A DNA stretch of 29,158 nt from a virus: the IMG/VR virus record IMGVR_UViG_3300025151_000204, positions 1 through 29,158 of that record. One strand, 5' to 3'. Position 1 is the first letter of the stretch. The number at the start of each line of letters is the position of its first letter. The notes below the pieces were generated by a model. It saw only the letters and a program-made list of their open reading frames with translations. It was not told where the DNA came from and did no database searches. Below, one piece after another: positions 240 to 18,311 of this stretch. The translations under genes were made by a program, and so were the position numbers.

Positions 240-410
240 ATGCTCCGATGCTCGATATGTGGCTACAAGGGAGAAAGGTGGCTTGTTCATAATGCTATGT
301 TCGAGTTAGAGGTGGCAGCACTATACTATGAGTTTCAATGCCCCGAATGTGATTCATTGGATATAGAGATTCTAATTTCCAAAAATGATGAACCTTCCGC
401 TCCCAGATGA
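240..410 (+). CDS. 56-aa zinc-ribbon protein
   Basis: This short gene encodes two zinc knuckles, C4-x2-C7 (CSIC) and C34-x2-C37 (CPEC), separated by 26 residues. That spacing fits a four-Cys zinc ribbon, a fold used for nucleic-acid or protein binding. The C-terminal third is acidic and then Pro/Ser-rich. The start ATG is preceded by a TATA box at 185-193. A second ATG at 230 is in another frame and stops after 20 codons. The last 39 bp overlap the 3' end of the terminase gene on the other strand, tail to tail, so the two transcripts would be antisense there. The role is unknown; a small transcription regulator is one possibility. The regular Cys spacing is the main evidence that it is real. 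Confidence 0.6.
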   Translation: MLRCSICGYKGERWLVHNAMFELEVAALYYEFQCPECDSLDIEILISKNDEPSAPR

Positions 411-1847
411 CTTTGAATTACCCCATGATGTGTTATTAGCAGTTTGGGTAGCCATTGGTAAAGCATTAGAATCTGCATGAGTCATTTGGTCTATTGCATG
501 TGCAAACGCCATGACCGTATCGTTGTGTTTTCCTACATCAATGATATTACCGGCTTTCCATACATGGGTGTCTAATTCATCTAATAGTATATTTACCATG
601 CGTCTTGTTTCATCATTACCATAGGGGAATATAACTTTCTTTTGTTCAAACCATACCCGCAACCTATTCATCAATGCCTGTTTTAAAGCACGATTAGATA
701 CTTTGCTTTGTCGGTAGTCCACAGTTATTCCCTTTTGAACCAATAACGACTCATACAATCTTTGAAAGCCTACATCTTCTGCTGATATTGGCGAATTGAA
801 AGTTTTAGACCATTGACCGAGCATATCTGCTTGTTTATCCGGTGCAAAGTCATTCCTACGCCACATATTAACAAAGTGAACAAATCCCTCCGAATCTTGT
901 CTAAGTACAACCATAACCGAGTAGTCTTTGCCTAAACCTTGTGATGGGTCAAACCCTATCATGTATTTACCAGGCTCTTTGCTATCCCACTCGATAACCG
1001 CATTAGTATTCATATTTGCACGAGTATGTTCACGCTTAAATGCTTGGGCTTCATCATCAACCACTTTACACAAATACTCTTGAGTAAATGCTAATTCACC
1101 TATTGCTTGTCGTTGTTCTAACAAAAACGATATTGGCCTTTGTTCTTCCCATAGGGCAATAGGTTTTACTTCGGGGTCGGCTTTATGTTCCTCCCAATTG
1201 GGTATTGCTGATGTAGTAGTAGTTTTCCATACATCATTTGATAACATTTCCGTATGGTATAGGTCTGTCATAGCCATAGGTGTTCCGACAACAAATATAG
1301 ATGTTCCTGGCGAAAGCATAGGTGTTATTTTCTTTCTAAACCAATGTTGTAGGTTGTTTGGGGATTGTTCGCCTATATCATCTAATACATCGTCAAAGAC
1401 AATACGGGCTGGGTGTTCACCACGAATGGCTGCACCTACACCGGTTGCTCTAATCCATGAACCATTAGTAAAGTGAATAGAATGCTTGGTTCCTCGCTTT
1501 GGGTCTATTAGATTTCTAAGTTGTGGGTGTCGTCTCATATCTTCTCTAATTTCCTCTAACCTACGATTAGCAAGGTCTTTACTTGCACTAAACAACCAAG
1601 TAGTAAAGGGTTTATCACGCCACTTTTCAAATAAACAAGACCATAATACCGCTACCCTTAGCGTAGTGGACTTTGAGTGGTCTCGGGGTGCAATAATACA
1701 AACACGGTGAACATTTGCTTCACCACGATTGAAATACATATCCATCCACTCCTCGATATGGTCTCCCCAAGAATAACCTAACCATTCATAGAAATACTTT
1801 GGGTCTCTGGCACTACGCTTTAGGGATAGTGTTTGTGTTGCACTCAT
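372..1847 (-). CDS. terL: Terminase large subunit
   Basis: This is the motor and nuclease that cuts concatemeric DNA and pumps it through the portal. The 491-aa length is normal for the family. The N-terminal ATPase has a Walker A-like loop APRDHSKSTT at residues 53-62 (K59, S60) and a Walker B strand RIVFDD at 148-153 (D152, D153). The RNase-H-like nuclease carries D300 (IGFDPSQG), E357 (ISAEDVG) and D443 (HNDTV) as likely metal ligands. The C-terminus is a flexible Asn/Ser/Gly tail ending GRFIIFGN. The start ATG overlaps the stop of the upstream Cys-rich gene (ATGA), which implies coupled translation. The gene is on the opposite strand from the portal and all other structural genes, which is less common. 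No classical small terminase is visible nearby. Confidence 0.95.
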   Translation of the reverse strand: MSATQTLSLKRSARDPKYFYEWLGYSWGDHIEEWMDMYFNRGEANVHRVCIIAPRDHSKSTTLRVAVLWSCLFEKWRDKPFTTWLFSASKDLANRRLEEIREDMRRHPQLRNLIDPKRGTKHSIHFTNGSWIRATGVGAAIRGEHPARIVFDDVLDDIGEQSPNNLQHWFRKKITPMLSPGTSIFVVGTPMAMTDLYHTEMLSNDVWKTTTTSAIPNWEEHKADPEVKPIALWEEQRPISFLLEQRQAIGELAFTQEYLCKVVDDEAQAFKREHTRANMNTNAVIEWDSKEPGKYMIGFDPSQGLGKDYSVMVVLRQDSEGFVHFVNMWRRNDFAPDKQADMLGQWSKTFNSPISAEDVGFQRLYESLLVQKGITVDYRQSKVSNRALKQALMNRLRVWFEQKKVIFPYGNDETRRMVNILLDELDTHVWKAGNIIDVGKHNDTVMAFAHAIDQMTHADSNALPMATQTANNTSWGNSKSSGSGRFIIFGN

Positions 1848-2008
1848 TTTTCATCACCATATCTAATAACTCGCATTGTTCCACAATAGACCATGCGTTT
1901 TTCTTCCTTACACCATTTTTTACATGATGTATAACGACAATACTTTTCACAACCGCATTCATTACATTTGCGGTGCTTATAAAATAAAACTCCACCACTT
2001 CTAACCAT
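1844..2008 (-). CDS. 54-aa cysteine-rich protein between phosphoesterase and terminase
   Basis: This small basic protein has seven cysteines (C15, C18, C20, C24, C29, C33, C42) and H12, with C-x2-C-x-C-x3-C-x4-C-x3-C spacing that suggests one or two bound metal ions. It contains many Lys and Arg, so nucleic-acid binding is plausible. The start is well supported: GGTGA lies 5 nt before the ATG, the first 8 nt overlap the end of the phosphoesterase gene, and its stop codon overlaps the terminase start (ATGA). The overlap chain makes it an integral part of the packaging operon. A longer minus-strand frame at 1813-1998 is a shadow of it. I do not recognise the family; a packaging accessory or DNA-binding factor is a guess from position. 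Confidence 0.72.
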   Translation of the reverse strand: MVRSGGVLFYKHRKCNECGCEKYCRYTSCKKWCKEEKRMVYCGTMRVIRYGDEK

Positions 2009-3437
2009 GATGCCTCACCGGACTAAATAAACTTCCTATCAAACCTAATTCTTTATCTATAATGTGAGCAGCCAACCCAGCCTTTGCCGTTGTATATCCG
2101 GCTCGGTAGTGGTATCGGTCATGTCCGGCTAATGAAGGCAATTGAATTACTAATCCACCCTCTAACTCATACAATACTTGGTGATGCAAATGACCGGTGA
2201 ACCATATATGATTTTCGGTTTGACCCCATAATACCCTTTGTTCTTTTGACATTAGCGTTGGTAGTTTTGCCTTTTTTATAGTATCACCATGATTAAAACC
2301 TAATAGTGTATTACCATAGGTGGTATAATGTCTAATTTGTGGATTTAGATTTATGCTAACATCATTGACTCCTTCGTATGCTGCCGATAAATACAACATC
2401 AAAGCCAATGTGCTATGTCTATCGTGATTACCAGCCATAAAGACAACCTCCACAGGTGCTACCTGTCGTAAAAGGTCTATATGTTCTCGTGCTAATTGAC
2501 AACCACTAATTAATATCTCAGCCGGTGAACCGCACATATCTTGCGGTGTACCACGAGTTGTTTGCCCTAAGTCATTATCAACATGAAACCAATCGCTACC
2601 GGAAGCCAAAATTATTTTATCAGGTTGTGCAGGTAGCCATGAAATTATTTCTTGTGTTCTATCCATTAGTCGGCTTCGTGCTTCTTTAAAGTTATATGAC
2701 TCACCGACCTCATCAACCCAACCATATTTACCCCAATGAAAATCTGTTGGCGACATAACTACCGCAAAAGGGGATTTACTTTCCGGTATTCGGAGTTTAG
2801 GAACGGTTTTTGGTGCTTTTGTTAGCCCACTTAGCATTCCTTTGTATGTATCTTCAAAGTGAAACCACTTTTCAGCTGCATCTTGAATGTCTTTCCATTT
2901 TTTCTTTTCATATTTTTTGTGTATTTCCCTACGATTTCTAAGAACAAGGTCTTCAACAAGTTCATCATTGTCGGTTTCCATTACTTCTTCATCGGTATAT
3001 GGTAGCATATCGTGAGTCCAACCATGTTTTCTTCGGTATTCATCAAACCAAAGACGGGGAAAGTTAAATTCTCGTGCAATTTGATTTAATGTTGCGCCTT
3101 TACTTGTCATATTAGAGTATGATGATTTCATGGCTCGGTGCATATCACCGGATATTACTAAATTTTCACCAGCACATTTTATGAATGTAATGTATGTATC
3201 GGTTTCTTTGTTGTAGTGATAGGGTGTTTTGTCATATTCTATTGGACTACTTTCTTCTTGAATAGCCCCGTCAATATACTTTAGGTAGCGATATAGTATT
3301 GCTTCCCAACCTTTGTGTGTACGATAGGGATAGTTTTCGTGCAAATCTGCCGATAACTTTGTTTTCATTCCTTTTACCGACATTGGGTAGTCGCCAATCA
3401 TTTGTTCTATCTTATCATAGTCCTCGTGTCGTTCCAT
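2001..3437 (-). CDS. HTH-linked calcineurin-like metallophosphoesterase
   Basis: The C-terminal half (about residues 222-465) is a calcineurin-like phosphoesterase with its metal ligands in order: D232-F-H234 (TDFHWG), D282 and H285 (GSDWFHVD), N337-H338-D339 (GNHDR), H383 (NHGD) and H416-L-H418 (GHLHH). Enzymes of this fold hydrolyse phosphodiesters, including DNA ends. The N-terminal 220 residues look like DNA-binding helices, with an HTH-like stretch around residues 110-140 (SKGATLNQIAREF) and a basic helix near 168-185. It is the first gene of the minus-strand packaging operon, where tailed viruses usually carry the small terminase. A TATA box at 3462-3468 would give a nearly leaderless message. 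The family is clear; the substrate and any packaging role are inference. Confidence 0.85.
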   Translation of the reverse strand: MERHEDYDKIEQMIGDYPMSVKGMKTKLSADLHENYPYRTHKGWEAILYRYLKYIDGAIQEESSPIEYDKTPYHYNKETDTYITFIKCAGENLVISGDMHRAMKSSYSNMTSKGATLNQIAREFNFPRLWFDEYRRKHGWTHDMLPYTDEEVMETDNDELVEDLVLRNRREIHKKYEKKKWKDIQDAAEKWFHFEDTYKGMLSGLTKAPKTVPKLRIPESKSPFAVVMSPTDFHWGKYGWVDEVGESYNFKEARSRLMDRTQEIISWLPAQPDKIILASGSDWFHVDNDLGQTTRGTPQDMCGSPAEILISGCQLAREHIDLLRQVAPVEVVFMAGNHDRHSTLALMLYLSAAYEGVNDVSINLNPQIRHYTTYGNTLLGFNHGDTIKKAKLPTLMSKEQRVLWGQTENHIWFTGHLHHQVLYELEGGLVIQLPSLAGHDRYHYRAGYTTAKAGLAAHIIDKELGLIGSLFSPVRHHG

Positions 3438-5650: not shown

Positions 5651-6373
5651 ATGACTGACAAAATAGAGGCTTTGGGTAATGCTGAAGAAATTGCTAAATT
5701 AACAGGTCGTACCAAATCCGAAGTTATAGAGGATTTACTTGACGATGGCAAATTAAATAACTCCAACGCTATTAGGGAAAATACATCGGCAATTGATAGG
5801 GCTACGGAAATGGCAGGTAAAACCCATAAATTACTAACTGCTATTATCCCTATTCTTATTTTGTTATCCACAAGTGGATTAGAATTAACAGGTATTATTG
5901 ATTTAACACCCGCTGGTAATGGCGACGATGATGAGTGGTTTTGGGAAGATGAAGAATATGAAGCATATTGGGGTTGTACAGACTATGATGCCGAAAATTA
6001 TGACGAGTATGCTACTGACGATGATGGTTCATGTGAATATGAGCCGGAAGAATGCGAACCTTTCTATTATGATTACTACCTAAATTATGCCGATAGTAAT
6101 AATTCAAGTCTAATATACCAATATGATGTTGATTTACCATGCGAAGAAACACAAGAGGTTGAAGTTCAATTTCTTGCATACGCAAATAACTCAACAGACT
6201 CAATTCCCGAAAACTACTCAATAGATAAGTGGAATGTGTATAACGGTGATGCCGAATACCGAAATATGACAATTTCTTTACCTAAAGGTCGCTATGACAT
6301 TTACGCATACATCATAAACAAAGATGGTGTTATGCAAGATGAAAAGATTTGGTCTAATATAGAAATAGAATAG
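5651..6373 (+). CDS. Membrane-anchored surface protein with GCTD...DDGSC motif
   Basis: Residues 1-59 are charged and helical, 60-84 form one membrane helix, 91-104 are strongly acidic, and residues 107-131 carry the pattern WGCTD...A-NYD--ATDDDGSC-YE with C109 and C128. The rest (about 165-240) is beta-rich and Ig-like, with further cysteines C135 and C164. N-x-S/T sequons occur at N150, N151, N179, N180, N188 and N205, all on the side of the membrane I predict to be external. The GCTD motif is widespread in secreted proteins of marine archaea and bacteria. The start follows GTGATTCT directly after the previous gene. The role is unknown: host-surface display, exclusion of rival viruses, or lysis are all possible. 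Confidence 0.7.
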   Translation: MTDKIEALGNAEEIAKLTGRTKSEVIEDLLDDGKLNNSNAIRENTSAIDRATEMAGKTHKLLTAIIPILILLSTSGLELTGIIDLTPAGNGDDDEWFWEDEEYEAYWGCTDYDAENYDEYATDDDGSCEYEPEECEPFYYDYYLNYADSNNSSLIYQYDVDLPCEETQEVEVQFLAYANNSTDSIPENYSIDKWNVYNGDAEYRNMTISLPKGRYDIYAYIINKDGVMQDEKIWSNIEIE

Positions 6374-6386
6374 TGGAGGTTATAGT

Positions 6387-8036
6387 ATGAGTGAAGATAC
6401 ATACGAAGCAGCAGAATATCAAGGCAAAAAAGTAAAATTAAATAAACCATTTAGAACTTCGGGCGGGTCAAAAAAGTTTGCCGTTTATACTAAGAATGAA
6501 AAAGGAAATGTAGTCATTGTGCGTTTTGGAGACCCAAACATGGAAATTAAAAGAGACGACCCAAAAAGACGCAAGGCCTTCCGAGACAGACATAATTGTG
6601 CAAATCCTGGCCCAAAATGGAAAGCTCGTTATTGGTCTTGCAAAATGTGGTCTTCTAAACCTGTCAATAAAATAACAAAAACTGAAGATTGTAGCGATTG
6701 TGGGTGTGGTGGTGATTGTAAAGAAGGTGGAGAATTAAATAGCCCATTAGCATTAGAATCCGCTATGGGAGAAAAGGAAAAAGAGGTTTATGCAGAACTT
6801 CCAAAACCTTCATCTGATGAAACACATGATGAATATATGTCTCGCTGCATGGAAGCTGGAGGAACCGAACAGGCATGTATGTTAGCCCATGAAGGACACA
6901 CTTTCAAAGAGGCCGGTTGGAAGAAAAAGAAAGCAAGTGTTGAATATGTATTTTTTGATACTAAAATTACTGAAGCAGTTGCACATGTTCAAGCATCTGG
7001 AGAAACCGTTGTAAAAATTAGTGGTATCGCTTTTCACGAAGGCATGAATAAGAATATGTGGCAAATTACTCGTGCTGGTGCCGAACAAATGCTTACACAA
7101 ATGATTGGTGCTGATTTAACTTTAAATCACCCACCAACAAAAGAAAGGGGCATTGGTTTTACAAGAAACATGGATGGCGGAGTCAATGATGCCGTAGTAG
7201 GTATTGTGACTGAAGCAAAAATTGTTGATTTAGAAAATGGCGGATATGAAGTACATTATGTTGCCGAAGTTATGAGAACCGAATTATTCCCCGCATTAGA
7301 ATCCGGTCTATGGACTCGTGGAGATTATGGGGTATCAATTGGTGGCTACGGAATACCTATCGCAACTGCCGAAGATGGTAGCATGACTTTTGAATCCGAC
7401 TTCACATTCGACCACCTCGCAATTGTGCATAAACCGGCTTACGAAAGGGCAGATATTAAAAAGGTTGAGAAGATTGAGGCCTCAAAAGAGTTCATATACC
7501 AGACCGATACTAACGAGGAACAAGCGAAGGAAGCGAATATCATGAGCGACGAAATAGATTATGTTGCCGAACTCGAAGACCTAAAGTCTCAACTTGTTTT
7601 GGCAAATGCGATTATTGACGAAAAAGAAGCACAAGAAGCAGCACTTGCCGAAGAAGCAAGAATGGAACTTGTAAAGAAAGCAAGCGAAATTGGTCTAAAA
7701 GGCCATGAGGACTTAGGTGCTGACACAATTACAAACCTAATATCATCTTGGGAAGCATCACGCCCCGTTGAAACACCGGTTGTAATGGCAGAAGCAACAC
7801 CGGCACCAGATAACATGGTTTCCGAAGTTGTTGAAGCAGAAACTGAATCAAATGTAGTAGCGAATTACCTAAACGGCGAATTGGTATCAACCGACGCTGA
7901 ATTATACGGTAGAGTTTGGAACTCATTAGTCGCTTCTTACAACACCGGCAACTTTTCAATGAACGGTGATGGAAACGCATACAAATTCGAGGAAGCTGTT
8001 GAAAAAGGTTTCCTTAAGATAACAAGAGGTGAATAA
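6387..8036 (+). CDS. Prohead maturation protease fused to scaffold
   Basis: The protein cleaves scaffold and capsid precursors during head maturation. Residues 5-88 form a basic domain (GKKVKLNKPFRTSGG to ARYWSCKMWS) that I associate with marine phage head proteins. A Cys4 cluster follows (C102, C105, C107, C111), then a short helical motif (ETHDEYMSRCMEAGG, 145-159). The protease domain spans about 188-370, with likely catalytic H248 (TLNHPP) and S317 (YGVSIGG). From about 386 to 460 a charged coiled coil (ELEDLKSQLVLANAIIDEKE) resembles a scaffold, ending in a small folded tail (about 500-549). GGAGGT lies 7 nt before the ATG. An in-frame ATG at 7542 may give the scaffold alone. Protease identity is firm; the exact clan (S78/S80-like) is not. 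Confidence 0.88.
   Translation: MSEDTYEAAEYQGKKVKLNKPFRTSGGSKKFAVYTKNEKGNVVIVRFGDPNMEIKRDDPKRRKAFRDRHNCANPGPKWKARYWSCKMWSSKPVNKITKTEDCSDCGCGGDCKEGGELNSPLALESAMGEKEKEVYAELPKPSSDETHDEYMSRCMEAGGTEQACMLAHEGHTFKEAGWKKKKASVEYVFFDTKITEAVAHVQASGETVVKISGIAFHEGMNKNMWQITRAGAEQMLTQMIGADLTLNHPPTKERGIGFTRNMDGGVNDAVVGIVTEAKIVDLENGGYEVHYVAEVMRTELFPALESGLWTRGDYGVSIGGYGIPIATAEDGSMTFESDFTFDHLAIVHKPAYERADIKKVEKIEASKEFIYQTDTNEEQAKEANIMSDEIDYVAELEDLKSQLVLANAIIDEKEAQEAALAEEARMELVKKASEIGLKGHEDLGADTITNLISSWEASRPVETPVVMAEATPAPDNMVSEVVEAETESNVVANYLNGELVSTDAELYGRVWNSLVASYNTGNFSMNGDGNAYKFEEAVEKGFLKITRGE
7491..7498 (+). promoter_or_regulatory. Candidate late promoter TTCATATA (scaffold/capsid)
   Basis: This is one of four exact plus-strand copies of TTCATATA in the window. 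It lies inside the protease gene, 51 nt before the in-frame ATG at 7542. If used, it would drive scaffold, decoration and major capsid protein, the products needed in most copies. Confidence 0.45.
7542..8036 (+). CDS. Nested scaffold protein (internal start)
   Basis: An in-frame ATG at codon 386 of the protease gene opens a 164-aa product (MSDEIDYVAELED...) that matches the start of the coiled-coil scaffold part. A purine-rich GAAGGAAG lies 9-16 nt upstream and the TTCATATA element lies 51 nt upstream. Lambda uses the same plan: protease C and scaffold Nu3 share a C-terminus through an internal start. Such nesting lets the virus make many scaffold copies and few protease copies. The internal start is inference; the coiled coil and ATG are seen directly. 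Confidence 0.45.
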   Translation: MSDEIDYVAELEDLKSQLVLANAIIDEKEAQEAALAEEARMELVKKASEIGLKGHEDLGADTITNLISSWEASRPVETPVVMAEATPAPDNMVSEVVEAETESNVVANYLNGELVSTDAELYGRVWNSLVASYNTGNFSMNGDGNAYKFEEAVEKGFLKITRGE

Positions 8037-8038
8037 AT

Positions 8039-8491
8039 ATGGTAGCATTCGGAGCAGCAGACCCAAGAAACGCAACACTAAAAGATAGCGAAGTCGTTAG
8101 AGGACTTGGCAGACTTTTAGTTAATGATGGAACAAACAACAAACTCGAAACAACTGACGCAACAGACATTTGTATTGGTGTGTCCGCTGGTGAATCCAGT
8201 CGTGATGCAGACCACGCATTCGAGACAACCGGTGCAACCGTATCATATTTCCCACTTGGCGGAGTACTAATGGTACAATCCGCTGCATCAGCAACATACA
8301 CCACAGGATGCACAGTCTATGTCGGTGCTGATGGATTAGCAACCGCAACAGCCGGTTCTAACAAGAAACTTGGATTGTATGTCGGTGAAGGACAAACTAC
8401 ATCTGGTACACTTTTAACTCCTGCAAATGAATCTTCCGCAACAGAAGGTGAATTAATTGCAGTTATGACAGCAGGAGCAGCAATCGCTTGA
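8039..8491 (+). CDS. Capsid decoration/cement protein
   Basis: The 150-aa product is rich in Gly, Ala, Thr and Val with predicted beta strands (VSYFPLGGVLMVQSA, GCTVYVGADG, KLGLYVGEG). It sits between the scaffold and the major capsid gene, the usual place of a head decoration protein (as lambda gpD), and its composition resembles capsid cement proteins of the DUF2190 kind. GGTGA in the last codons of the scaffold gene precedes the ATG by 7 nt. The assignment rests on position and composition rather than on a firm motif. Confidence 0.65.
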   Translation: MVAFGAADPRNATLKDSEVVRGLGRLLVNDGTNNKLETTDATDICIGVSAGESSRDADHAFETTGATVSYFPLGGVLMVQSAASATYTTGCTVYVGADGLATATAGSNKKLGLYVGEGQTTSGTLLTPANESSATEGELIAVMTAGAAIA

Positions 8492-8501
8492 GGTGAATAA
8501 T

Positions 8502-9398
8502 ATGGCAAACAAAACATTAGAAGAAGTACTAAACATAAGCGCAGCATCTGGCCCATTCGGAACTGGAGACGCTGTTATACAACAAGTTATGCGTGATTTC
8601 ATTCAATTGGAATCCCTAAGACTTGCAATCGGAACAAACCTTGTCGGTGTTAGAAGTGTCCCTTGGCTTGAATACAAGTGGTACACCGCCGGAGTAGGTT
8701 CTTTTTCATACCCAATCGACGATGCAGCTGTTGTTGACCCAACAAAGGTCGGCACCAAAAACTACACCGTTAAGTTAGAAAAAGGACAAGGCCGAACAAC
8801 TTTCCTTGACACCGTGAAACTTCGTGGTGAATCCTGGGAGAACATGGATAGACAACAACTTGCAATCGCTAAGGGTCGTGCCGACAAAATTGATGAGCAC
8901 ATTCTTGACAAACTACTTGCTGGTGCTGGCCAAACTTTGGCTGCTACCGGTGCTGGTTTCAAAGCAGCTGACGGTGATGCAGAACTTGACATTCTAAAGG
9001 GTGTTGATTTAATCTTTAACAACGCAAGAGTTTCTGGGAACGAGGCTTTGGCTTTGGTTCTTCCTGCAACACACAAGTCGGCTATGAACTCCACAACCCT
9101 TTACGGAAATGTTGTTCAATCCCTTTCAGAAAGATTAGGTGGTCAAATCAACCTAACTGTTTACTACACAAGAGATTCTGATTTTGCTTCAACCGGTCTA
9201 TTGTTGGTTCCTGGAGCACAAACCGCTGAGCTCTTTACCTACAATGGCCCAGGAGTAACTGAAACTGAAATCACAAGAATGCCTGGTGTCGGGTTTGATT
9301 ACCTATTGACTTCCTACATGGGTGTCGTTATCCACGAACACGATGATGGAGCGTCTGCTGGCACAAATAACAGAATTGTAAAGATTACAGGCATTTGA
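8502..9398 (+). CDS. Major capsid protein (HK97 fold)
   Basis: The 298-aa product builds the icosahedral shell. It lies after protease, scaffold and decoration genes, and has the expected order of elements: an N-terminal arm, an E-loop-like stretch (YTAGVGSFSYPIDDAA, then a strand with KLEKGQGR), a spine helix (ENMDRQQLAIAKGRADKIDEHILDKLL) and A- and P-domain strands (LALVLPATHKSAM, GLLLVPGAQTAELFTYNGPG). The length is typical without a delta domain, which agrees with a separate scaffold. I choose the ATG at 8502, not the in-frame GTG at 8493, because GAGGTGA, overlapping the previous stop, lies 6 nt before 8502 and would itself contain the GTG. Confidence 0.85.
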   Translation: MANKTLEEVLNISAASGPFGTGDAVIQQVMRDFIQLESLRLAIGTNLVGVRSVPWLEYKWYTAGVGSFSYPIDDAAVVDPTKVGTKNYTVKLEKGQGRTTFLDTVKLRGESWENMDRQQLAIAKGRADKIDEHILDKLLAGAGQTLAATGAGFKAADGDAELDILKGVDLIFNNARVSGNEALALVLPATHKSAMNSTTLYGNVVQSLSERLGGQINLTVYYTRDSDFASTGLLLVPGAQTAELFTYNGPGVTETEITRMPGVGFDYLLTSYMGVVIHEHDDGASAGTNNRIVKITGI

Positions 9399-14316: not shown

Positions 14317-14807
14317 TGGATTCTATTTACGGCAATTTTAGAATAGAATTACTTTTCAAACATAGTGAGTTAGAAGATGCTTGGGGTTCACCATTACCTA
14401 CCGCAAGCGAAAAGGGTTATCCAAAGATATTCAATAGAATGGTTCATTGGGTATTGTTTGCCGATGAAACCGCAATAGCATATACATGTTCCCTATTGAT
14501 GCCCGACAAAGCCTATGCTTTAGTAGGAAACACCTATGTTCGCAAAGAATGGCGAAGCAAAGGACTACACACCCATTTACTAAACGAAAGAAACAAATCA
14601 CAACACCTATATGGCGTTCCTTTGATTACCGTTTTAAATCCCATAGAAAAGACCGATATAGATAGTTTGGTAAAGGTTGTATCTAAACTTGGCTACGAAA
14701 AGGTCAACGAGTATTTAGATGTGGCTGACATTATGCCCCTACCTTCATATACTAAATTGGATTTAAAAGAGCACCAGCAATTGTGGAGGTTAGACTATGG
14801 CTCGTGA
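14316..14807 (+). CDS. GNAT-fold acetyltransferase-like protein
   Basis: The 163-aa product has the GNAT order: strands ending in AIAYTCSLLMPDKAYALVGNTYV, then the acetyl-CoA pyrophosphate loop V75-R-K-E-W-R80-S-K-G83-L-H and helix (THLLNERNK), then PLITVLNP and a C-terminal KLGYEKVNEYLDV. The R80-S-K-G83-L loop departs from the usual Q/R-x-x-G-x-G/A in its last position. GNAT enzymes move acetyl groups to amines. This gene is wedged between connector and neck genes with overlaps on both sides (1 nt and 11 nt), so it is co-expressed with virion proteins. The substrate is unknown and loss of activity is possible. Confidence 0.7.
   Translation: MDSIYGNFRIELLFKHSELEDAWGSPLPTASEKGYPKIFNRMVHWVLFADETAIAYTCSLLMPDKAYALVGNTYVRKEWRSKGLHTHLLNERNKSQHLYGVPLITVLNPIEKTDIDSLVKVVSKLGYEKVNEYLDVADIMPLPSYTKLDLKEHQQLWRLDYGS
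14744..14751 (+). promoter_or_regulatory. Candidate late promoter TTCATATA (neck gene)
   Basis: Exact TTCATATA inside the 3' part of the GNAT gene, 53 nt before the ATG of the neck protein at 14797. The base after it is C, as at 7491 and 17830. Confidence 0.42.
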
Positions 14808-16536: not shown

Positions 16537-16544
16537 TTCATATA
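16537..16544 (+). promoter_or_regulatory. Candidate late promoter TTCATATA (tail tube)
   Basis: The element lies in a 48-bp gap. Its layout is TTCATATA, 21 nt, TTAAAGGGG, 9 nt, ATG, and the same layout with the same spacing recurs before the gene at 17877. An archaeal start about 25 bp after the box would fall near TTAAAGGGG, with GGGG serving as ribosome site. Confidence 0.6.
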
Positions 16545-16583: not shown

Positions 16584-17621
16584 ATGGCTTATACAATCGG
16601 TTCAGCAAATAGAGGCGCAGTCATTAGACAACAAACATCATTTGGTACAGTAGGTAGCGGAAGCACATTTTTTGGTGCAATAGATGATGAATCACTATCA
16701 ACCACATTTGACACAAACATGCGAGCAGATATGACTCGCTACGGTGCATCAAAATCAAAGACCGGAAAAAGATACTCGGAAGGTAGTATCAACATGGCTT
16801 TAGACGACTCGCAATTCTGCGCACTAATACTAAAGGGTGTTTTCCCAAAGGTAGCAACAACAGGTAGCGGAGACCCATACACCCACGCTATGACAGAAAT
16901 TAACCACGACCAAGGAAGGACTGGTTCAGATTCATTCCCTGTATTTCAATTAATTATTGTCCGTGATGAAAAGCAACATTCCTATTCATCTATGAGCATT
17001 AACCGTGTATCTATCAAAGGTTCTGTTGGCGAGTATGTAATGCTTAGCGCAGACTTTGTAGGAAAAGCGGAGGGCGAAGATTCAGTATCTTCACCAGCAG
17101 CAATTGACACCGAATCAACATTAGCCGTAGGTGCAACCGAACCAGTACACTTCCAAAGCGCAAGTGTAGCATTCAAAAATTCTGCGGTATCTTTGCAAGT
17201 AAAGTCCGTTGACATTGAGTTTAACCTAAACCGTGATGTTGATGCTTCCTTTGCATTAGGAAACGAAACATGCGTTAGAGAAGCACCACCACAACTTAGG
17301 GAAATAACAGGTTCCGTTGAGTTTATCAAGCCTATTCATAGCACATCATTAAATGAACCACTATTCGGTGATTTGATTGATGGCGGAGCAAACACTGTTT
17401 ACCAACCTGGTTCAAGCAACCCAGCAATCACACTAACATTTACCTCCACAGCAAACCACGACTTCATAATCAAAGTGTACCATGTTCAATGGGATGCACC
17501 TTCTATGAATGTATCAGGTAGAGATACACAAACAATGTCATTAGGATTTACAGCACTATTTGATGAAACAAAGAAGGCTATGGCTACCTGTGATGTTAGA
17601 AACGCATCATCATCATTGTGA
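16584..17621 (+). CDS. Major tail tube protein
   Basis: The 345-aa beta-rich product polymerises into the tail tube. It follows the terminator and precedes chaperones and tape measure, the fixed place for this gene. The sequence fits the tube fold: strand-rich segments (GSINMALDDSQFCALIL, SINRVSIKGSVGEYVMLSADFVGK, VKSVDIEFNLNRD, TMSLGFTALFDE) and an N-terminal YTIGSANRGAVIRQQTSFG that is common to phage tube proteins. It is one of the few genes in the tail block with its own intergenic leader and TTCATATA element, in keeping with high expression. Confidence 0.8.
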   Translation: MAYTIGSANRGAVIRQQTSFGTVGSGSTFFGAIDDESLSTTFDTNMRADMTRYGASKSKTGKRYSEGSINMALDDSQFCALILKGVFPKVATTGSGDPYTHAMTEINHDQGRTGSDSFPVFQLIIVRDEKQHSYSSMSINRVSIKGSVGEYVMLSADFVGKAEGEDSVSSPAAIDTESTLAVGATEPVHFQSASVAFKNSAVSLQVKSVDIEFNLNRDVDASFALGNETCVREAPPQLREITGSVEFIKPIHSTSLNEPLFGDLIDGGANTVYQPGSSNPAITLTFTSTANHDFIIKVYHVQWDAPSMNVSGRDTQTMSLGFTALFDETKKAMATCDVRNASSSL

Positions 17622-17829: not shown

Positions 17830-17837
17830 TTCATATA
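17830..17837 (+). promoter_or_regulatory. Candidate late promoter TTCATATA (beta protein)
   Basis: The element starts one base after the previous stop, 47 nt before the ATG at 17877. Spacing to TTAAAGGGG and to the ATG equals that at 16537, while the 21 nt between differ at most positions, as expected for a conserved promoter and ribosome site. Confidence 0.6.
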
Positions 17838-17876: not shown

Positions 17877-18311
17877 ATGCCGTACAACCGATACCTAAAT
17901 GGCGTAATACGCAGCGAGCACCATGCACACGGACTATCACGAGAAATAACTGTAGAGTATGACTTTGCAGACCTTGGCGGAAGCGCAGGTGCAGTCACTC
18001 TAACCGATGTAAATAACAATGCAGTCACAATCCCTGACAATGCAATTATTACAAGTGTTATCTATGAAGAAATTACACCTATGACCTCCGGTGGCTCAGC
18101 AACCGTTGCTTTGGGTATTACCGGAAACACAGACGCATTCATAGCAGCAATTGCTTTTGATAACGCAGCATATACCACTGATGTTAGCAAAAAAGAAAAC
18201 GAAGTACCACTAAAAACAAGTGCAGCTGTATCAGTATTAGCAACAATCGCTACTGCTGATTTGACTGCAGGTAAATTTAGATTACACATAACATACATCA
18301 ACGGAGCTTGA
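17877..18311 (+). CDS. Beta-rich virion protein, probably abundant
   Basis: The 144-aa product (SREITVEYDFADLGGSAGAV, SVLATIATADLTAGKFRLHI) resembles a beta-sandwich structural protein that recurs in marine phage genomes and has no assigned role. It has its own leader with the TTCATATA element and an AAAGGGG ribosome site, arranged exactly like the tail tube gene, so I expect high copy number. It could decorate the tail or head. Confidence 0.6.
   Translation: MPYNRYLNGVIRSEHHAHGLSREITVEYDFADLGGSAGAVTLTDVNNNAVTIPDNAIITSVIYEEITPMTSGGSATVALGITGNTDAFIAAIAFDNAAYTTDVSKKENEVPLKTSAAVSVLATIATADLTAGKFRLHITYINGA

Follow-up and report, generated by a model that had tools for sequence, protein, structure and literature searches.

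A predicted intragenic promoter for a candidate nested scaffold gene within the capsid-protease gene of a putative archaeal tailed virus

The open reading frame (ORF) at positions 6387-8036 of IMG/VR virus record IMGVR_UViG_3300025151_000204, of which the first 29,158 nucleotides (nt) were analysed (hereafter the window), very probably comprises two nested genes with a common 3' end. The longer one encodes a protease-scaffold polyprotein of 549 amino acids (aa; protein P0001), read without interruption and accompanied by 594 related stretches in IMG/VR; the shorter one would be expressed from a promoter in the linker between protease and scaffold, on the same mRNA as the decoration and coat proteins. 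The predicted scaffold gene (7542-8036; this and all features below are on the + strand unless stated otherwise) starts at the in-frame ATG of codon 386 (M386, 7542-7544) and would yield a free protein of 164 aa (MSDEIDY...), including a long helix at P0001 aa 392-434. Upstream lie a Shine-Dalgarno (SD)-like stretch, AAGGAAG, at 7527-7533 (-7.6 kcal/mol with the anti-SD), and a TATA-like element, TTCATATA, at 7491-7498, its first base 51 nt before the ATG. Both the ATG, with its product MSDEIDY, and the element at this spacing had been picked out in a previous reading of the letters alone, and their coordinates and reading frame proved correct.

Conservation of the predicted internal start and its upstream element

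The peptide patterns used to retrieve relatives left M386 out, and conservation was assessed on 124 distinct C-terminal sequences and on 65 representatives of them, all below 80% pairwise identity. In the alignment, which the sequence-only reading had proposed as a check, all 124 distinct relatives have a Met aligned to M386, against commonest-residue frequencies of 0.19-0.66 in the 12 linker columns upstream. In 63 of the 65 representatives a Ser or Thr follows, which fits a processed N-terminus. An SD of -6 kcal/mol or lower precedes the M386 ATG in 97% of the 65 representatives, compared with 14% of other in-frame Mets (50-representative set), and the median SD energy is -8.5 kcal/mol at the M386 ATG versus -3.3 at 1034 other in-frame Mets (p = 1.4e-27). 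The underlying motif, GGTGA or GGAG, is kept although the peptide encoded differs (KVN, GEL, QVI, TEI). A combined rule of SD plus element is satisfied by 64 of 65 M386 ATGs and by 43 of 1270 other in-frame ATGs. Loss of both M386 and the element from close relatives was not seen: the codon is present in every relative that reaches it and the element in 64 of the 65 representatives, at identities down to ~40-50%.

The element lies 42-57 nt upstream of the M386 ATG in these 64 representatives (98%), with the best scores at -48, -51 or -54 in nearly all of them (p = 3.5e-27 compared with other in-frame Mets). When codons were randomised synonymously, the observed mean element score was unreached in 2000 trials (z 4.3); in a control with 23 offsets in the same genes, z ranged from -4.7 to 2.1, compared with 4.1 at the true site. 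Among the six closest sequences, synonymous differences amount to 0/26 in the element codons and 7/77 across aa 366-390, compared with 316/718 elsewhere in the protease and 215/572 elsewhere in the scaffold (~41% together), and the minimum for the whole gene falls at aa 370-389. Aligned column 370 may hold Ile, Lys, Asn or Met, yet the first base of the codon is always A. Where this column is Ile, the codon is ATA in 38 of 39 cases compared with a background of 21% (p = 3e-25); the statistic was taken on the alignment column, placement by best element score being biased towards ATA.

The most independent line of evidence comes from other genes; the relatives share ancestry, so that the p-values given above overstate independence. 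A 14-position matrix built from the internal elements alone was scanned around 585 other gene starts and gave peaks at -31 (20 hits, p = 1e-22) and -30 (15 hits, p = 2e-15), where 0.69 hits were expected at each position, hence 35 hits together compared with ~1.4 expected. For an archaeal TATA box, -30/-31 is the position expected if the A of the ATG is also the first base of the transcript. Applied to the internal element, this geometry predicts a transcript start at 7522 ± 1 (element start + 31) and a 20-nt leader (7522-7541) that contains the SD. Directly 5' of the element is a purine-rich stretch, AAAGAG (7485-7490), resembling a B recognition element (BRE; family pattern G[AC]AA). A generic TATA consensus gave only a weak peak near -31, at gene starts with a large intergenic gap, so the family-specific matrix was needed. 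Most of the window's highest-scoring matrix matches other than the element itself are antisense or intragenic; the matrix alone is thus not a specific promoter finder, and its signal is positional. Leaderless-type promoters in the relatives combine a BRE-like GCAACC or GAAACC with TTTAWA or TTGATAA 30-31 nt before the ATG, often ahead of genes of ~450 or ~409 aa (L016 at 607 and 3816, L025 at 4806, L014, L021, L134 and others), and at least two relatives (L003 and L134) have a promoter of this type before the protease gene itself. In Haloferax volcanii, 72% of coding transcripts are leaderless (PMC4983044).

The word TTCATATA recurs three times in the window: at 14744-14751, within the end of the preceding gene and 53 nt before the gene at 14797; at 16537-16544, 47 nt before the tail-tube gene at 16584 (PF18906), another high-copy protein; and at 17830-17837, 47 nt before the gene at 17877. 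Four copies compared with 2.1 expected, a count reached by 17 of 100 shuffles, do not make the word rare by itself. All four, however, are on the + strand, 47-53 nt before a gene-opening ATG and with an SD-like stretch in between, and all four sites are also present in a 61-kb relative. The copies at 14744, 16537 and 17830, conserved in L168, probably represent a promoter class for high-copy structural genes. Overall, the comparisons strongly support reading the internal element as a promoter of the virus family's own kind.

Protease fold, candidate scaffold and module exchange

The ORF product appears to be a capsid protease similar to T4 gp21 and herpesvirus pUL26, fused to a C-terminal candidate coiled-coil scaffold. 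In relatives, aa 185-549 form a constant core, and an AlphaFold2 model of this core (predicted local distance difference test, pLDDT, 69) shows a β-rich domain followed by a long helix, which is the coiled-coil candidate (aa 392-434; model residues 208-250). A fold search of the PDB with the model gave T4 gp21 on top (5jbl; TM-score 0.54 on target length, E 1.5e-3) and pseudorabies virus pUL26N next (4v07 and 4v08, E ~1e-3), with a gap in E-value to all others; named matches in a viral library were mostly prohead or capsid-maturation proteases. These matches place a capsid-maturation protease domain at aa ~185-365 (6939-7481), with an invariant His (LNHP, aa 248) and an invariant Ser (YGVSIGG, aa 317) as likely catalytic residues. 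They came from the fold search alone: a sequence-profile search of the PDB returned no relative and no herpesvirus protease, and no Pfam family matches P0001. The proposal of the sequence-only reading, a protease carrying its scaffold as a C-terminal coiled coil, fits the fold match and the predicted helix. We infer the scaffold role of the C-terminal 164 aa from their position, their helix content and the lack of another candidate: the coat protein, being encapsulin-sized, could not accommodate an HK97-style delta domain, and a separate scaffold therefore appears to be needed.

In contrast to the constant core, the N-terminal part of the protein is drawn from a varying set of modules, many relatives being ~800 aa long with two or three extra modules. 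PHROG matches to P0001 are confined to its first ~90 aa (phrog_7595 and, weakly, phrog_9979). The mobile domain concerned (aa ~6-98, 6402-6680; 'HVA1 family' in phage records) is found also in phages of Pelagibacter, Roseobacter and Flavobacterium; in the window it is fused to the protease, whereas in the closest relatives (L001-L003) it lies in a different frame, outside the protease ORF. Between modules, both in the window and in relatives, repeated motifs of (V/I)EA followed by A, S or T (VEAAEP, VEASE, IEASK) are candidate self-cleavage sites.

Exchange of modules also reaches the boundary between protease and scaffold. Thirteen loci (three representatives) carry an extra domain of ~140 aa at this place, and in all nine of the thirteen that were listed the insert is upstream of the element, leaving the unit of element, SD, ATG and scaffold undisturbed. 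The insert loci are L187, L193, L194, L196-L199, L208, L220, L221, L235, L239 and L241. The same module (NDPRKTPAKP...ARVNAFLYLLRNGRPSNPNYKQDNDLLP) forms the polyprotein N terminus in L010 and L025, an instance of module shuffling within one structural gene. Relatives with the scaffold as a separate gene were looked for and none was found; L214 and L223, considered as such cases, were rejected, the scaffold being fused in both to a protease with a variant motif.

Proposed expression of the head genes and alternative readings

In the mechanism that we propose, the element at 7491-7498, probably read by archaeal TBP/TFB, would start a second mRNA near 7522, and translation from ATG 7542, aided by the SD in the ~20-nt leader, would give the free scaffold. 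The same mRNA would continue through the decoration protein gene (8039-8491; phrog_122, head decoration) and the major capsid protein gene (8502-9398; 298 aa). The coat protein model is of low confidence (pLDDT 48), and its best matches are HK97-fold shells (encapsulins and phage capsids). Both genes have a strong SD, but a matrix hit of at least 7 between -60 and -25 was found at 0 of 55 decoration ATGs and 0 of 48 coat ATGs, from which it follows that the internal promoter probably drives scaffold, decoration and coat together. The simplest reading would be one mRNA for these three, with protease and portal expressed from elsewhere at a lower level: the high-copy head proteins would have a promoter whose transcript leaves out the protease. 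The long product would be made in low amounts from upstream transcription, and its few copies would enter the prohead via the fused scaffold tail. We infer the transcript, the free protein, the stoichiometry, the timing and the host transcription factors from the comparisons given here. The sequence-only reading had proposed a transcriptional switch for excess scaffold. Its promoter is strongly supported by DNA-level selection on the element and by the match to the family's other promoters; its restriction to the scaffold gives way to a promoter probably serving all three genes, and the SD would also serve internal translation. Scaffold output may be raised further by lambda-like initiation on the long mRNA, which is compatible with the promoter mechanism.

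Several observations weigh against an internal promoter or limit how firmly it can be argued. The synonymously randomised segment retains a high mean element score (6.07 compared with 6.45 observed), the element of one representative, L239, is poor (CTTATACC), and the window's own SD is weaker than the family-typical GGTGA and further from the ATG. The peptide that the element codons spell follows a loose pattern, [FLIV][IKNM][YSG][HQ], so part of the conservation there may be at the level of protein. The evidence for element, ATG and SD is comparative throughout, and the relatives are non-independent samples. Scans of genome contigs with protease-scaffold and coat-protein alignments gave no match and hence no host.

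A mechanism by translation alone, as with lambda C and Nu3, would have one long mRNA with internal ribosome entry at ATG 7542 and its SD, and the TATA-like element would be incidental. The strength and conservation of SD and ATG would fit this, as does the overlap of the lambda C and Nu3 genes (Shaw and Murialdo 1980, as cited in PMC8508860), but selection acts on the element itself at the DNA level, and other genes have promoters that match the element at a constant 30/31 nt from their starts; we consider translation alone to be distinctly improbable. That the conserved stretch instead reflects a protein feature, such as a protease release site or a scaffold-binding peptide of which M386 is merely a part, seems very unlikely. 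A release site would be expected in the linker, where the loose peptide pattern falls at aa 369-373 with candidate cleavage motifs (xEA then S/T/A) just upstream; however, the Ile, Lys, Asn and Met aligned there have only the first codon base in common, synonymous sites are frozen, the SD is kept under differing peptides, and M386 is the sole invariant residue of the linker. Similarly remote is the chance that the virus is bacterial and the promoter of bacterial type, either a -10 element or one like the late promoters of T4. The contigs are metagenomic, without a proven host, and T4-type late promoters are likewise short A/T boxes, yet the element of the leaderless genes sits 30/31 nt before the ATG, at the archaeal TBP position and not at that of a bacterial -10 element, and the long relatives carry RFC, ERCC4 and PolB of archaeal type.

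Elsewhere around the head genes, the protein encoded just ahead of the protease (5651-6373) combines a hydrophobic segment with a CTDYDAENYDEYATDDDGSCEY repeat similar to those that bind calcium in marine proteins. Genes for the terminase large subunit and for an SbcD-like exonuclease (phrog_704) lie on the opposite strand (372-3437, -), transcribed divergently from the head genes, and a very A/T-rich region of 281 nt separates the exonuclease from the portal.

Probable host and relation to known systems

Archaeal replication genes (PolB, RFC, XPF/ERCC4) occur in the long relatives and not in the 29-kb window. The PolB of the long relatives is nearest to that of haloarchaeal tailed viruses; proteins similar to the RFC small subunit occur in 6 of 10 long-relative records, with scores under the curated cut-off. 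XPF/ERCC4 nucleases are present in 3 of 10, and of 14 control genomes only the four archaea match. PCNA, thermosome and Rad51 were not found in the long relatives tested and give no evidence on the host, and a phage collection had no close record. The replication genes together with the promoter geometry point to an archaeal host, most likely marine archaea, with Poseidoniales as one candidate. With these genes in its long relatives and a TATA element ~30 nt before the inferred start, the virus would belong with the archaeal tailed viruses (Caudoviricetes). Magroviruses and the tailed viruses of Poseidoniales are marine tailed double-stranded DNA viruses; they carry archaeal replication genes, and their head module includes a prohead protease (PMC10160649; PMC13108676). 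Our family resembles magroviruses in the replication genes of its long relatives and in the position of the protease; neither PCNA nor thermosome was found in the long relatives tested, and we do not assign the virus to that group.

Regarding the origin of scaffold from within a protease gene, the sequence-only reading had drawn an analogy to lambda C and Nu3. Lambda makes Nu3 by internal translation and is not known to use a dedicated internal promoter. The window is like lambda in having an internal start with SD inside the protease frame; unlike lambda, it conserves both a promoter element and the SD, so that its scaffold does not appear to lack a promoter of its own. The herpesvirus pair UL26 and UL26.5 therefore replaces lambda as the closer analogue, having an internal promoter. 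In herpes simplex virus 1 the two genes are 3'-coterminal and in frame, with the UL26.5 promoter inside UL26 (PMC2949831; PMC4498786). As with this pair of protease and preVP22a scaffold, the window has one ORF for both proteins, a predicted nested in-frame scaffold gene with a common 3' end, and a protease model that matches pseudorabies virus pUL26N. It differs in its archaeal-type promoter, in the SD in place of cap-dependent initiation, in a short mRNA that probably extends through decoration and coat, and in its extra unrelated N-terminal modules; the profile search of PDB sequences gave no whole-gene homology to herpesvirus UL26. The window gene would thus work like the herpesvirus pair with archaeal signals, and we do not file it as a member of the herpesvirus or the lambda type. 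Protease and scaffold share a single gene also in lambda and P2 (PMC8508860). T4 gp21 has the protease fold in common with the window, but gp21 and gp22 are separate genes. The ~55 proteases compared with ~580 major core proteins in T4 proheads (PMC9958956) illustrate the ratio that such a switch would serve. In the literature searched, we found no report of a nested scaffold arrangement with internal promoter in archaeal viruses, which is weak evidence of its absence.

Lastly, our study has implications for how head proteins are balanced. For every protease, tailed viruses and herpesviruses need a large number of scaffolds, and the solutions of T4, lambda and the herpesviruses differ. A TBP-type scaffold promoter in the protease gene might be an old trait of the HK97 lineage, common to archaeal tailed viruses and herpesviruses, as opposed to two inventions; or, more modestly, a marine archaeal virus family might set head-protein stoichiometry by an intragenic promoter kept through insertions. 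We regard this reading as unlikely. An archaeal virus family that apparently uses the herpesvirus way offers a testable case for the origin of such nested genes. A further outcome is a promoter matrix, with predicted start sites, for marine archaeal viruses not yet in culture. Annotation of the protease-scaffold region as one ORF would overlook a structural gene in more than 100 contigs.
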